Made by a program: the position numbers and the translations under genes
Shown: positions 12,988 through 17,701 of the stretch, piece by piece
Position numbering within the stretch: position 1 is the first letter of the stretch
Layout of the letters: every line of letters starts with the position of its first letter
Source of the DNA: Salinispora cortesiana
GTDB taxonomy: Bacteria > Actinomycetota > Actinomycetes > Mycobacteriales > Micromonosporaceae
DNA length: 64,000 nucleotides
Direction of reading: 5' to 3'
Assembly (NCBI RefSeq): GCF_000484695.1
Contig: NZ_AXVR01000001.1
Location: 1 to 64,000 of the forward strand
Notes under the pieces: generated by a model
What the model was told of the DNA's origin: nothing
Databases searched by the model: none
The model's input: only the letters and a program-made list of their open reading frames with translations

Positions 12988-14244
12988 TTGTCCGGTGGTC
13001 CAGAACTGCATCCCGGCCGCCGGAGGTACCAACTGCCCACCTCGTACCTGCTCTGGCTTGTCGGGATCCTCGCCTCGCTGCTGGGCAACTCGTTCTTCTA
13101 CTTCGCCCTCGGTTGGCAGGCGAGTGCGCATGGCGGCGCCATCGCCGGTCTGGTGCTCACCGCCATCACGCTGCCGCGGGTGCTGCTGCTTTTGATCGGT
13201 GGGGCGGTCGGGGATCGGGTGAGCGCACGCCGAGTGCTCATCATCGGCGATGCGGCGATGCTCGTCTTCTCGGTCGCCCTGGCGGCAGCGGCCTATCATC
13301 TCGGCGCGCCGCCCTGGTTGTTGCTCACCGCAGGGGTTGCCGTGGGGGTCGCCGATGCCTTCTATCTGCCAGCGTCCGGGTCGATGCCGCGGCGGCTGGT
13401 CAACGCGGACCAACTGCCACGGGCCCTGGCGTTACGTCAGGCCGGCGGTCAGCTGGTGGCCGTTGGCGGCGGTCCGCTCGGCGGGGTTCTCGTCGGGTTG
13501 GCCGGGCTGGCGGGGGCTGCCCTGGTCAACGCAGTGACCTTCGCCGCGGTACTGATGCTGCTGATTGCTATTCGGCCGCGGTACGCCGGCCCGCCGCCGC
13601 CGCCGGCGGGTGCGGGGATTGTCCGCGACGCCCTCGACAGCCTCCGCGTTGGCTTTCGTGATCCACTCCTGCGTCCTGGGTTGACGATGACCGGGGCCGC
13701 GGCGGCGTTTCTGCTGCCGGTGCTGTCGTTGCTGGTCCCGCTGCTCGCGCGGGCCCAGGACTGGGGAGTGGCGGCTGCCGGTCTCATTCTTGGGGCGCAG
13801 AGCGTCGGCATGGTTGTCGTCACCCTGGCTGTCGCGCGCCGAGGCCCGCTCGGCCGGCCCGGTCTCCTCTCCGCCTGGGGTCTGTTGGCAGCGAGCGTCG
13901 GCGTGCTCGGGTTGGCGCTTTCGCCCACCGTTCCGGTCGCCATCGGCGCGGGGGTGGTCATGGGGTTCGGGAGCGGTCTCTTCGCCGCGCACCTCGGGCC
14001 CCTGATTTTGGGGACGACTCCGGAGACTCACCTGTCTCGGACTCAGGCCCTGCTGACCCTGGTGCAGAGCCTGGCTTCGCTGGTCATGCTCAACGTGCTC
14101 GGCGCTGTCGTCGAATACCGTGGTGCGGTGGTGGCGATGGCGATCTGCGCAGTGGCCACCAGCGGCGTCGGGCTGCTGGCGCTCCGGTCCGCGCCGCTGC
14201 GCACCACTCGGGTAGGGCTCAAGACAAGCTCGGTCGCCGGATGA
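12988..14244 (+). CDS. MFS transporter
   Basis: 418 residues with about 12 predicted membrane helices. The first pair is joined by GGAVGDRVSARRVLIIGD, the MFS motif-A loop (G...DR...RR). The central loop around IRPRYAGPPPPPAGAG separates the two six-helix halves. It is similar in layout to MFS exporters related to enterobactin/macrolide efflux (TMS1-type); the substrate is unknown. The TTG at 12988 sits after GAGGGG with a suitable spacer; the next good start is not obvious. It is divergent from mqnD with a short gap, so the two may share a promoter region. It is convergent with the hypothetical gene that follows. Confidence 0.8.
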   Translation: MSGGPELHPGRRRYQLPTSYLLWLVGILASLLGNSFFYFALGWQASAHGGAIAGLVLTAITLPRVLLLLIGGAVGDRVSARRVLIIGDAAMLVFSVALAAAAYHLGAPPWLLLTAGVAVGVADAFYLPASGSMPRRLVNADQLPRALALRQAGGQLVAVGGGPLGGVLVGLAGLAGAALVNAVTFAAVLMLLIAIRPRYAGPPPPPAGAGIVRDALDSLRVGFRDPLLRPGLTMTGAAAAFLLPVLSLLVPLLARAQDWGVAAAGLILGAQSVGMVVVTLAVARRGPLGRPGLLSAWGLLAASVGVLGLALSPTVPVAIGAGVVMGFGSGLFAAHLGPLILGTTPETHLSRTQALLTLVQSLASLVMLNVLGAVVEYRGAVVAMAICAVATSGVGLLALRSAPLRTTRVGLKTSSVAG

Positions 14245-14272
14245 GGGTTCGAGCGGTGCTGCCCAGGCCCTG

Positions 14273-14737
14273 TTACGGGGCGCCCGCCTCCGGCGTGGCC
14301 TCGTGCCCCGGCAAGCCGTGGGTGCGGCGCCGCTGCTTCATCTCCGCCTCGTAGATGTGCCGCCGCCCACCGGCAAGGCGTTCCCGTGCGTCCCGCTCGA
14401 TCGCCTGGAACGTGGCGTAGTAGCCGTCGTCGAACTCCTCCACGACCTGGAATGTCCATCGCCCGGGTAGCACGTTGCGGCCCAGCAACTCGTGCTCGAC
14501 CCGGTCGGCCATGTCGTCGTGCTCGGCCTCGCGGAGTAGCCGCACCACCCGGTCGAGGGTGAGATCTGCTCCACCGATGAGCTGGTGTGCCGAATACAGG
14601 TGACCGCGTGCCCGATGGACTGTCTCCAACGCCTCGGTCAATCCGCCCAGGGCTTCGACGGTGGCGTCACCGACCCCTGCCGGCCGGGAGTGTTCCGGGT
14701 CCACTGACCGCTCCTGATCTGGCATGGCGGCTGACAT
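14273..14737 (-). CDS. Hypothetical protein, helical, cytoplasmic
   Basis: 154 residues from the ATG at 14737 (an ATG at 14725 is also possible; neither has a strong ribosome site). The sequence is charged and probably all-helical (EALGGLTEALETVHRARGHLYSAHQLIGG, RVVRLLREAEHDDMADRVEHELLG). A YYATFQAIERDARERLAGGRRHIYEAEMKQRRRTHG segment is distinctive. No signal peptide or membrane segment is seen. The sequence looks like a small conserved actinobacterial protein of unknown role, but I do not recognise a named family. It is convergent with the MFS gene. Confidence 0.6.
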   Translation of the reverse strand: MSAAMPDQERSVDPEHSRPAGVGDATVEALGGLTEALETVHRARGHLYSAHQLIGGADLTLDRVVRLLREAEHDDMADRVEHELLGRNVLPGRWTFQVVEEFDDGYYATFQAIERDARERLAGGRRHIYEAEMKQRRRTHGLPGHEATPEAGAP

Positions 14738-14987
14738 ACCCCGGAATCGCCGGGCTGCACCCGAGGGCGCCCGCCGCCAATCAACGCGCCGCACTCCCGC
14801 CGCTGTGCCTTGTCAACGGCGGGTGATGGTGAAGATCGGTTTCGCCCTGGTCTATCCGGATGAGTCCGTTCGGCCGGGCCTCCCGTTTGGCTGCGGTAGT
14901 GGCCCCGGCGGCTTTGCCGGGCGATTCACGTGTGGCACCATCGTGGCACCGGTAACAGCCTCCGGTCCCCTCGACAGGAGTTCACCT

Positions 14988-15134
14988 ATGTCTAAATCGA
15001 CGCGTCGCTGGCGTGGTGCCGTCCTCGCGCTCGCGGTTATGGCTGCGTTCGCGGGTGGCCTGCTGGCGCTGGAGCCGAGCGCCCAGCTTGCCGACTTCAG
15101 CTGGAGCGCCCCGGCTTCAGCGGAAGGGCAGTAG
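14988..15134 (+). CDS. 48-residue exported peptide
   Basis: ATG seven bases after CAGGAG (14975-14980). The peptide has a basic start (MSKSTRRWRG), a hydrophobic core (AVLALAVMAAFAGGLLAL) and a short tail (EPSAQLADFSWSAPASAEGQ). This looks like a signal peptide or membrane anchor followed by about 20 residues. No family was recognised. It ends 35 bp before the GGDEF-EAL gene and is probably in the same transcript. The ribosome site and amino-acid pattern support real coding; the function is unknown. Confidence 0.6.
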   Translation: MSKSTRRWRGAVLALAVMAAFAGGLLALEPSAQLADFSWSAPASAEGQ

Positions 15135-15169
15135 TTCGCTAGCGTCCGCACCGCCGACCAGGAGGCGGT

Positions 15170-17701
15170 ATGTCAGACAGTTCACCGACGGTGCGTAGGA
15201 CTGTTGAGTTGGTCTGGCTGATCACCGCCCCGCTGGCGATGGTCGCGGTGTTCTGTACCGTCTTCCTGGCGCTTACGACCGAGTCGTCGTCAGGCAACCT
15301 AACCATCACCACGGCCCTGCTGCTTGTCGCGATGGTCGGGGCGAGCACGCACGTCCTGCAGATCGTCGTACGCCGCCAGGCGCTCGAGGTGATCGCCACC
15401 GAGATCCCACTCGTGCTGGCTTTCTACTACCTGCCGCCGTTGACGGTTGTGGCGCTCATGGTGCTGTCCGCCCTCGTCGCGCAATACTGGCGCCGGCTCG
15501 CTGCGGTGAAGGTCTGGTTCAACGTGGCCTGCAAGGGCGCGGCAGCCTCACTCGGTGGCGTCGTCCTGGTTGGGCTCTCCGGTGTGGATGGAGTCGGTCC
15601 GCGGACGTGGGCGGTCCTGTTCGCCGCGGTGACGGTGAACTCGGTGGTTTCCCTGCTCGCGATCAGTGGCGTCGTGAGCTTGTTGCACGGCTGGCAGGCC
15701 GGCTGGGAGCTGTTCCGCAGGTCCCCGGTGCCGCTGCTGGTCAACTCCATCAACGTGTTGATCGGTCTGATCCTGCTGCTGGCGTTGGAGTCGACCTGGT
15801 GGTCGATGTTGTTGATCGCCGTGTTGGCCGTCGCGATGGTGGTGATAACTCGGTCGTACGCGCAGTTCCTCCGGCAGCATCGCATGCTGAGCAGCATGTA
15901 CGAGCTTACCCGGGCGATGACCGATGGGGGTCGGGAGGGCGCCATCGCCGACGTTCTGCTGGGCCGGATCCGGGCGTTGATGCAGGCCGAGTACGCGACC
16001 CTGTGGCTCCCCGCACTGGGGCGCTTTCCAGAGATGCTGCTCAGCGCCCGGGTGGACGACCGGGGCCTGCTCGATGTCGCCCAGACCCCCGCCGAGCTGC
16101 GTCAGCAGGTCCGGGAGTCCGGTGAGACGCTCGCCTCTGGGCGGGCTCTTCCGAAACTTCCCGCTATCTCGCGGGATCTGGCTGGGCATGGGGTGAAGGA
16201 CGTGATCGTCGTCCCGCTGCGGTCGGGACAGGCGATCATCGGCACGCTGGAGGTCGTCAACCGGCTCAGTGACGGCGGCCATTTCACCCCAGATGACATC
16301 CCCGTCTTTGAGACTGTCGCCGCGCACACCGCGGTCGCAATCGAGAATTCCCGGTTGGTTGACCGACTGCGGCACGACGCTTACCACGACACGCTCACCA
16401 AGCTGCCCAACCGGCGGCGGGCCATCGAGGCACTCGACGAGGCAGTGAAGATCCGAGCGCCGGGTGAGGTGGTGGCACTGTTGCTGTTTGATGTGGACAG
16501 ACTTCGGGAGGTTAACGAGTCCCTTGGGCGTGCCGCCGGGGACAGGGTCCTGGTCGAGGTCGCCGAGCGGCTTCGCTCGTGTGCGCCGTCGTCCGCGTTG
16601 GTGGGGCGGGTTGGCGGTGACGAATTCCTCGTGACCCTCCGGCTGGAGGGGGCGAATGAGGCCTTGGACTTGGCGGCTCGGCTGCGGGAGCAGAGCGGTT
16701 CGGTGATGACCTTCGACGGGCTCGCCCTTGACGTGGATACGGCGGTGGGCGTCGCCGTTCACCCGGACCACGGCAGTGGGTCCACCGTGCTGTTGCAACG
16801 GGTCGACCTGGCCGTGACCGCGGCCAAATCTACTCCCGGGAGCGTCCAGCTGTTCAACCCCGCGCTGGAGTCCCGGTCGCGTCGGCGGCTCGGTCTGGCC
16901 GGTGATCTGCGCCGAGCCCTGGACAACGGCGAATTGGACGTGTACTTCCAACCGAAGGTCACCCTGCGGGACCGGCGGTTGGTGGGCGTCGAGTGCCTTG
17001 CCCGTTGGAACGATCGGGCCCACGGATCGGTCTCGCCGGAGGACTTCGTGCCGGTTGCGGAGTACACCGGTCAACTGGGGCGGCTCACCGAGTTCGTGCT
17101 CCGGGAGGGGCTACGGCGTAGCCATGACTGGGCGCCCGGGGGTCACCCGCTCTCCGTCGCGGTCAACCTCTCCCCGCGTACGCTGACCGACCAGCACTTC
17201 CCGGAGCGGGTGCGGGAACTGCTCGAGGAGTACGGGGTGCCGCCGCAGCGGCTCACGTTGGAGATCCGGGAGTCCGGGGTGCTGGACGGCACCGACCGCC
17301 CCATTCCGACCCTGCGGCGCCTGCGTGATCTGGGAGTCCGCCTGTCGGTGGATGACTTCGGCACGGGTAACTCGTCGCTTGCGCACCTGCGCCGGCTCCC
17401 TGTGCACGAGGTGAAGGTCGACCACCGGTTCGTGCAGGGGATGGCGACCGACCCCGGGGACCTGGCCATCGTCAACGCGGTGGTCACCCTCTCCCAGCAG
17501 TTCGGCCTTGCTGTGGTGGCCGAGGGGGTGGAGAGCGAGTTGACCCTGGAGCTGCTCCAGGACATTGGGTGTGAGTACGGGCAGGGGTTCCTGTTCAGCC
17601 GCCCGTTGCCCTATGAGCGGCTGGAGGCGTGGTTCGGCGCCCAGGTGGAGTCGGAGGCGGTGGCGGCGGGGGAGCCACCGCGGCTTCGGGTCGTGCCGTG
17701 A
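15170..17701 (+). CDS. Membrane GAF-GGDEF-EAL cyclic-di-GMP signalling protein
   Basis: 843 residues, ATG with AGGAGG upstream. The N-terminal 235 residues hold about seven membrane helices. A GAF-like domain follows (about 245-390), then a diguanylate cyclase domain with an intact GGDEF (482-486), and a C-terminal phosphodiesterase domain. The EAL motif reads ECL (608-610), but the other catalytic residues look intact: NLS, the LEIRES glutamates, DDFGTG (D728, D729), the VKVDH lysine, VAEGVES and GQGF. I see no RxxD inhibitory site just before GGDEF. The protein could therefore make, degrade, or switch between c-di-GMP activities in response to a membrane or GAF signal. It lies downstream of a small exported peptide. 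Confidence 0.92.
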   Translation: MSDSSPTVRRTVELVWLITAPLAMVAVFCTVFLALTTESSSGNLTITTALLLVAMVGASTHVLQIVVRRQALEVIATEIPLVLAFYYLPPLTVVALMVLSALVAQYWRRLAAVKVWFNVACKGAAASLGGVVLVGLSGVDGVGPRTWAVLFAAVTVNSVVSLLAISGVVSLLHGWQAGWELFRRSPVPLLVNSINVLIGLILLLALESTWWSMLLIAVLAVAMVVITRSYAQFLRQHRMLSSMYELTRAMTDGGREGAIADVLLGRIRALMQAEYATLWLPALGRFPEMLLSARVDDRGLLDVAQTPAELRQQVRESGETLASGRALPKLPAISRDLAGHGVKDVIVVPLRSGQAIIGTLEVVNRLSDGGHFTPDDIPVFETVAAHTAVAIENSRLVDRLRHDAYHDTLTKLPNRRRAIEALDEAVKIRAPGEVVALLLFDVDRLREVNESLGRAAGDRVLVEVAERLRSCAPSSALVGRVGGDEFLVTLRLEGANEALDLAARLREQSGSVMTFDGLALDVDTAVGVAVHPDHGSGSTVLLQRVDLAVTAAKSTPGSVQLFNPALESRSRRRLGLAGDLRRALDNGELDVYFQPKVTLRDRRLVGVECLARWNDRAHGSVSPEDFVPVAEYTGQLGRLTEFVLREGLRRSHDWAPGGHPLSVAVNLSPRTLTDQHFPERVRELLEEYGVPPQRLTLEIRESGVLDGTDRPIPTLRRLRDLGVRLSVDDFGTGNSSLAHLRRLPVHEVKVDHRFVQGMATDPGDLAIVNAVVTLSQQFGLAVVAEGVESELTLELLQDIGCEYGQGFLFSRPLPYERLEAWFGAQVESEAVAAGEPPRLRVVP

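Follow-up and report, generated by a model that had tools for sequence, protein, structure and literature searches.

A tryptophan-motif peptide gene as a candidate partner of the adjoining membrane c-di-GMP enzyme in Salinispora and related Actinobacteria

The AgrD-AgrC and ComC-ComD systems pair a small precursor gene with an adjacent gene for a polytopic membrane receptor. In the YfiR-YfiN system of Gram-negative bacteria, a small periplasmic protein acts on the membrane signalling protein of the adjoining gene. In DbfQ-DbfRS, too, the membrane signalling protein on which a small periplasmic protein acts is the product of a neighbouring gene (PMC12714742). Receptors with the S-component fold, which carry an extra N-terminal helix and are linked to kinase, GAF, GGDEF or EAL domains, are described in passages of another study together with a discussion of their ligand site (Commun Biol 2024, PMC11109136); the same passages treat 5TMR sensor kinases, among them the pyruvate sensor BtsS.

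Here we examined a small ORF that precedes a membrane c-di-GMP enzyme gene in a 64 kb stretch of Salinispora DNA, hereafter the window. The features of this locus are as follows.

14932-14949, + strand: conserved 18-bp element GTGGCACCATCGTGGCAC, probably serving the peptide-receptor operon as promoter/operator
14976-14980, + strand: Shine-Dalgarno sequence AGGAG of the peptide gene, 7 nt from its ATG, identified by sequence
14988-15134, + strand: 48-aa peptide gene (ATG 14988-14990, TAG 15132-15134) with basic N-terminus, hydrophobic core and W-motif tail
15018-15068, + strand: codons for the hydrophobic core (residues ~11-27), a signal peptide or membrane anchor judging by sequence, hydropathy filter and cleavage-site rule
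15093-15104, + strand: codons of the tail motif D36-F37-S38-W39, with W in all 150 genus tails
15160-15165, + strand: Shine-Dalgarno sequence AGGAGG of the receptor gene, identified by sequence
15170-17701, + strand: membrane receptor/enzyme of 843 aa with S-component-like helical domain, GAF (258-391), GGDEF (404-555) and EAL (579-812)
15170-15934, + strand: sensor domain of the receptor (residues 1-255), predicted ECF S-component-like fold with a beta-hairpin (63-74) in the loop that follows helix 2

The locus resembles the Agr and Com pairs in that a small precursor gene is conserved beside a polytopic receptor, in its one conserved tail motif and in cognate pairing. It differs from them in its output, a GGDEF-EAL enzyme rather than a histidine kinase, in a core of general signal-peptide-like character, and in that no processing or export gene was seen among the two upstream neighbours scanned here. 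As in YfiR-YfiN and DbfQ-DbfRS, a c-di-GMP or sensor protein would have its extracytoplasmic partner encoded in cis; those are Gram-negative proteins, whereas the candidate here is a Trp-motif tail of ~20 residues in Actinobacteria. As in the receptors of PMC11109136, an S-component-fold sensor with an additional helix at its N-terminus, modelled here, is joined to GAF, GGDEF and EAL domains; the candidate ligand here is an encoded peptide, a kind of ligand absent from the PMC11109136 passages on which this comparison draws. Open-literature searches returned no report of this peptide-receptor pair, and the peptide gene seems to be undescribed.

The peptide gene, its upstream element and its conservation

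The first-pass annotation of the window had placed a Shine-Dalgarno-led ORF of 48 residues 35 bp ahead of a membrane GGDEF-EAL gene, and direct reading and translation of the window DNA (MSKSTRRWRGAVLALAVMAAFAGGLLALEPSAQLADFSWSAPASAEGQ, 48 aa; 35 nt between the peptide stop and the receptor ATG at 15170) confirmed these coordinates. Neither Pfam (E 0.1) nor NCBIfam contained a family matching the peptide, and an Rfam scan of 14200-15600 gave no match. The peptide is single-copy in the window's genome by profile search (next best E 0.28). Two upstream neighbours were scanned, an MFS transporter (12988-14244) and an ORF on the minus strand without family assignment (14273-14794); no modifying enzyme was found in these two, and the MFS transporter was their only assigned product when a dedicated processing or export gene was sought.

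The 18-bp upstream element (consensus TGTGGCAC-N-ATCGTGGaAc) has one match in the window, against 0.03 expected. At least 14 of its 18 positions were matched in 137 of 150 genus loci, where shuffled DNA reached at most 13, and the element mostly lay 54-57 bp before the peptide ATG. Outside the genus the same threshold was reached in 34/65 family, 28/30 named and 0/8 order loci. Scans for sigma-70 promoters and terminators found nothing. The position of the conserved element before the peptide suggests a transcript in which the peptide gene comes first.

Each of 151 genus genomes contains a single match to the receptor N-terminal domain. A similarity search with the peptide found 19 of these 151 genomes, and the same search with the frame shifted by one base still found 7. 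Because such a search also matches through DNA likeness alone, presence of the gene was judged from the DNA read before each orthologous receptor. The genus set comprised the upstream DNA of 150 receptor loci, including the window's own and leaving out the 151st genome (G080); loci were oriented by tblastn, and those without a tblastn match were placed by search coordinates. A small ORF behind a Shine-Dalgarno sequence, coding for a basic N-terminus followed by a hydrophobic core, was present beside the receptor in 150/150 loci, so that conservation next to orthologous GGDEF-EAL genes, on which the first-pass annotation had made its proposal depend, was borne out. With the added requirement of a stop no more than 200 bp from the receptor start, the count was 149/150, 148 of these with the tail motif, compared with an average of 4.1/150 (0.2 with motif) over 10 rounds of dinucleotide shuffling of the upstream DNA and with 3/150 (0 with motif) on the minus strand.

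Coding constraint, named in the same annotation as the second point on which the proposal turned, was likewise found: pN/pS was 0.49 in frame, and the two alternative frames gave 0.87 and 1.61 (35 equal-length pairs). The dN/dS of the peptide was 0.49 (53 disjoint species pairs), with 0.45 for the first 28 codons and 0.49 for the tail, and that of the receptor domain was 0.16; when all pairs of eight Salinispora-type species were pooled, the values were 0.39 for the peptide versus 0.28 for the receptor domain. We conclude that the peptide gene is under moderate, real coding constraint.

A short conserved motif stands in the tail of the peptide. Trp was found in the tail of all 150 genus peptides, and of the 191 tail Trp residues, 178 were accompanied by an acidic residue at -3 or -1. 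Variants within the genus include DFSW (window), DVIW, DIVW, GVDW and EFEW. An exact repeat of a W-containing 4-mer occurred in 14/150 genus tails, against 0.22 expected from shuffled tails (maximum 3 in 200 rounds); repeats reached six copies, examples being DYSW x6 (L045), DVVW x5 (L230) and DIVW x4 (L228 and L259). The search rule by which genus peptides were collected required a signal-like core, which is accordingly present in 150/150. A simple rule found an [AV]xA site in 106/150 genus peptides and in 79/95 family and named peptides, some of these sites lying inside the core. The cleavage site of the window peptide is weak: its strict [AV]xA sites all fall within the hydrophobic core, and LLA alone comes after it. 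Judged by its signal-like core, the peptide may well be exported.

The tail motif is inherited together with the receptor. Motif class changed 7 times on the genus receptor tree, versus a mean of 54 for shuffled labels, and with so few changes peptide and receptor are clearly co-inherited in the genus; for an analysis of tail-receptor covariation, 7 motif-class changes are too few for 250 columns.

At the family level a peptide gene was found beside the receptor in 67/67 loci (65 by the automatic rule, L346 and L354 by looser rules), a set in which 7 loci are from the genus itself and some are shared with the named loci; among the named loci 30/30 passed the automatic rule. Trp was the penultimate residue in 69/95 family and named peptides. 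In one family genus (g11, three loci read), a signal-like start is followed by NSGDVA, TSGEVN or SSGEVA repeats without Trp. A profile search with the peptide over the family had matched 83/121 genomes at E 0.01, many of them weakly, and was replaced by the receptor-anchored reading.

Sensor fold and enzyme output of the receptor

The nearest named relatives of the receptor are from Salinispora, with up to 90% identity. Its sensor membrane domain matched no Pfam family at E 0.1. AlphaFold2 modelled the domain (30 sequences; mean pLDDT 83.7, pTM 0.77) as a bundle of long helices plus the hairpin at 63-74, and we read the model as seven membrane helices. On comparison with solved structures by VIA, the best match was 4huq_S with Z 13.1 and rmsd 3.2 over 156 residues, a Z of about 13 being one that can also reflect an arrangement common among helical bundles. 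The top 22 VIA matches were transporter components, nearly all ECF S-components (Z 9.6-13.1), and the next stood at 8.4. Foldseek matches to S-components were weak (best E 0.086), with probabilities of 0.87-1.00 for most of them. As modelled, the sensor domain has the ECF S-component arrangement of helices. In S-components the ligand pocket faces outward. With seven helices and the C-terminal enzyme in the cytoplasm, the N-terminus and the hairpin loop of the sensor would lie outside, the side expected for the peptide tail.

The window protein retains the catalytic motifs GGDEF, ECLAR, DDFGTG and AEGVE, and its GGDEF and EAL sites both look intact. Across 31 aligned proteins GGDEF was kept in 27, ECLAR in 30, and DDFGTG and AEGVE in all 31. 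Four Salinispora proteins (L065, L067, L068 and L090) have an altered GGDEF (GSDEF, GGDAF, SGDAF) with the EAL signature kept, and look like phosphodiesterases with a regulatory GGDEF domain. Because EAL residues are kept in nearly all 31 proteins and GGDEF is altered in four, the common output of these receptors is more likely to be c-di-GMP hydrolysis.

Trp-repeat ORFs and S8 subtilases before distant receptors

Beyond the family, a receptor-domain match was found at the thresholds used in 74/150 genomes of the order, 43/296 of the class and 33/246 of the phylum. The upstream DNA was scored for W-repeat ORFs, defined by at least 2 copies of a W-containing 4-mer near the C-terminus and an ORF end within -420 to +40 of the receptor. 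Seven class loci that duplicated later ones, and L389, L390 and L190 because of their short upstream DNA, had been dropped before these counts; the sorting below left out L378 in addition. A W-repeat ORF lay directly upstream of the receptor in 19/34 usable order loci, a set that contains three g11 family loci with non-W repeats scored as misses (L159, L162, L425), in 18/38 class loci, several of which come from one genome, and in 15/26 phylum loci. The minus strand of the same window of DNA gave 1, 1 and 1 such ORFs for order, class and phylum, and DNA further upstream gave 0/33, 0/37 and 1/25. Among control loci at other GGDEF genes (34 given, 15 usable), there was 1 W-repeat match (L002), which is probably spurious.

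Sorting of 98 distant loci gave 32 with an S8 subtilase and an exact W repeat, 5 with an S8 subtilase without exact repeat, 20 with a short W-repeat ORF and 41 with neither. One of the 20 short ORFs, an arginine-rich one with 2 x TAAW (L399), is probably due to chance. An S8 match was thus present in 37/98 loci, and in 37/37 the S8 frame continues into a tail with at least 4 Trp residues. The S8 stop falls within -450 to +60 of the receptor start in 35/37, the other two lying at +67 and +137 of the script-assigned start. Two W-tailed proteases were searched in Pfam and matched Peptidase_S8 (E 2.1e-49 and 1.9e-38); no Pfam family was found for the W repeat of these two. Several S8 subtilases (L405, L418, L408/L413, L409/L412, L186, L180 and others) carry up to 22 C-terminal five-residue W repeats, and distant repeats include GSSWR x19, GAGWR x22, GLTWR x9, GLRWN x11, ASWTG x18 and GWGWD x10. 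With 41/98 distant receptors lacking both kinds of upstream gene at the position examined, a universal rule is unlikely.

Repeat and receptor appear matched in these genomes too. In one genome (G723) four receptor paralogues are accompanied by four different repeats (ARSWR/ADSWD, GSSWR, SQSWS and SHTWE). Orthologous receptors of two other genomes (G738 and G751) share their repeat (GLTWR/GLTWR at 79% receptor identity, GLRWN/GLRWN at 90%), and receptors of these two genomes with different repeats are ~30% identical. The closest receptor to the GSSWR one is that of GAGWR and vice versa, at 38% identity. Two receptors (L410, L414) have no W partner and are preceded by an apparent response-regulator gene.

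Some short W-repeat ORFs have no signal-like start. ORFs of 25-47 aa that consist mostly of W repeats precede the receptor at L153, L157, L160, L387, L424, L428-L434, L437 and L438; examples are RTNKWT x4, DGNTWT x5, RGNRWS x4 (L434) and DGGSWT x4 (L153), and the ORFs at L434 and L153 have a well-placed Shine-Dalgarno sequence and no hydrophobic core. A hydrophobic segment was absent from 13/16 short order-level W-repeat ORFs (families f16, f9, f7) and from 1/4 at class level. Because these ORFs are without such a core, either another exporter works on them or the motif acts from inside.

The five-residue period of many W repeats (GSSWR, GAGWR, GLTWR) is like that of the PF00805 pentapeptide repeats, although PF00805 was matched neither by the window peptide nor by those W-repeat proteins that were searched. 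At a related receptor (L166), an ORF with a signal-like start and GASLT x18, without Trp, stops 44 bp before the receptor, and this repeat matches Pentapeptide PF00805 with E 1.8e-30; the match suggests that the five-residue W repeats are of pentapeptide type.

A genome-wide DNA pattern for W repeats matched 126/246 genomes. The reversed control was often equally frequent, although not in every genome, and therefore the pattern is unusable alone. Of 30 loci with this pattern, 12 held an ORF of five-spaced Trp, 2 of these 12 with a receptor match in the short flank. That W repeats are exclusive to receptor neighbourhoods is not supported, the pattern also being met where no receptor is in reach. 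Two long W-pentad proteins of SRTWD type, with 22 and 36 consecutive pentads (L444 in G456, L445 in G444), have no receptor match in their short flanks.

Proposed role of the peptide

What was observed is a real gene that leads a two-gene unit, follows a conserved element and is inherited with its receptor, and in which the conserved unit is a short Trp motif that is tandem-repeated in some lineages. We consider it reasonably probable that the product of this 48-aa gene is an extracytoplasmic peptide that serves the adjoining membrane c-di-GMP enzyme as its cognate ligand or partner. Several observations count against this reading: the leaderless W-repeat ORFs, the weak cleavage site of the window peptide, the 41/98 distant receptors with neither kind of partner, the Trp-free repeats of g11 and L166, the weak Foldseek values and the W-pentad patterns away from any receptor. 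The first-pass annotation had proposed a peptide partner or a secreted signal of the sensor. The notion of a partner was strengthened by the co-inheritance, the tandem motif and the distant W-repeat pairing; that of a secreted signal stays tentative, given that export is deduced from sequence, that the window peptide has no clean AxA site and that leaderless relatives exist.

The main rival, which is possible but which we doubt, is a small single-pass membrane subunit whose uncleaved core packs on the sensor helices, with the W tail just fixing the complex and nothing being released. The lack of a clean AxA site past the core of the window peptide would fit such a subunit, as would a first stretch of 28 codons constrained at least as much as the tail, and a peptide that is single in the window's genome and stands beside the sole receptor of each genus genome. 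Against it speak the [AV]xA sites counted above in most genus, family and named peptides, even if some lie inside the core, and the tandem amplification, which affects the motif and not the core; in addition, the S8-W proteins and the leaderless W-repeat ORFs keep the repeats without such an anchor.

Nascent-chain arrest or leader peptides of the SecM/TnaC type, in which translation of the small ORF would control receptor translation in cis, also come to mind: the ORF is short, lies just ahead of the gene that would be regulated, has a signal-like core and carries a conserved motif close to its stop. Such control is quite unlikely because, unlike in SecM/TnaC, no constraint was seen on spacing or junction RNA: the stop-to-start gap ranges from -8 to 180 bp over the 150 genus loci, and RNA at the junction shows no unusual stability (mean z -0.38 versus -1.00 inside the gene; 40/150 loci sampled). 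Moreover, clades differ in the motif (DFxW, GxxW, NSGDVA, GASLT), which can occur in as many as 22 copies and also makes up the C-terminal end of complete proteases. We give still less credence to a RiPP precursor, in which unlinked enzymes would cross-link or cyclise a Trp-motif core and the receptor would sense the product; the multi-core look of L045, L228 and L230 and the leader-like start of the leaderless forms would suit it, but no modifying enzyme occurs in the two upstream neighbours scanned, and the Micromonosporaceae forms read carry a signal-like core in place of a leader. Least credible of all is an independent secreted protein that is merely co-transcribed and has no functional link to the receptor, since the pairing is constant over a family and the motif follows receptor orthology in another family.

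If the peptide is the cognate ligand or partner of the receptor, its basic and hydrophobic N-terminus would send the tail across the membrane. The motif, as a cleaved free peptide or tethered, would then dock its Trp at the outward S-component-like pocket, docking would shift the helix leading to GAF-GGDEF-EAL, and this shift would change c-di-GMP turnover, most likely hydrolysis. The Micromonosporaceae peptides may be reduced forms of the W-repeat tails that are carried elsewhere by secreted S8 subtilases.

More tentatively, these pairs might represent an undescribed, phylum-wide type of peptide-to-c-di-GMP signalling in Actinobacteriota, in which Trp-motif ligands dock their Trp in the pocket of S-component-fold GGDEF-EAL receptors. 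Each receptor paralogue would have a motif of its own. In the deeper branches the ligand would be the repeat tail of a secreted subtilase, which might itself set it free, and in Micromonosporaceae it would have been reduced to a tiny dedicated peptide acting as an autocrine or population signal.

Although every one of the 150 genus loci carries the peptide gene, it is missing from Pfam and NCBIfam. Orphan receptors are common among membrane c-di-GMP enzymes, and here the genome offers a candidate ligand beside the receptor; the motif is short enough for synthesis, so that the stimulus of the sensor would become directly testable. c-di-GMP is described as controlling development and antibiotic production in actinomycetes, and the proposed pairing, if true, would link it to peptide or protease signalling.
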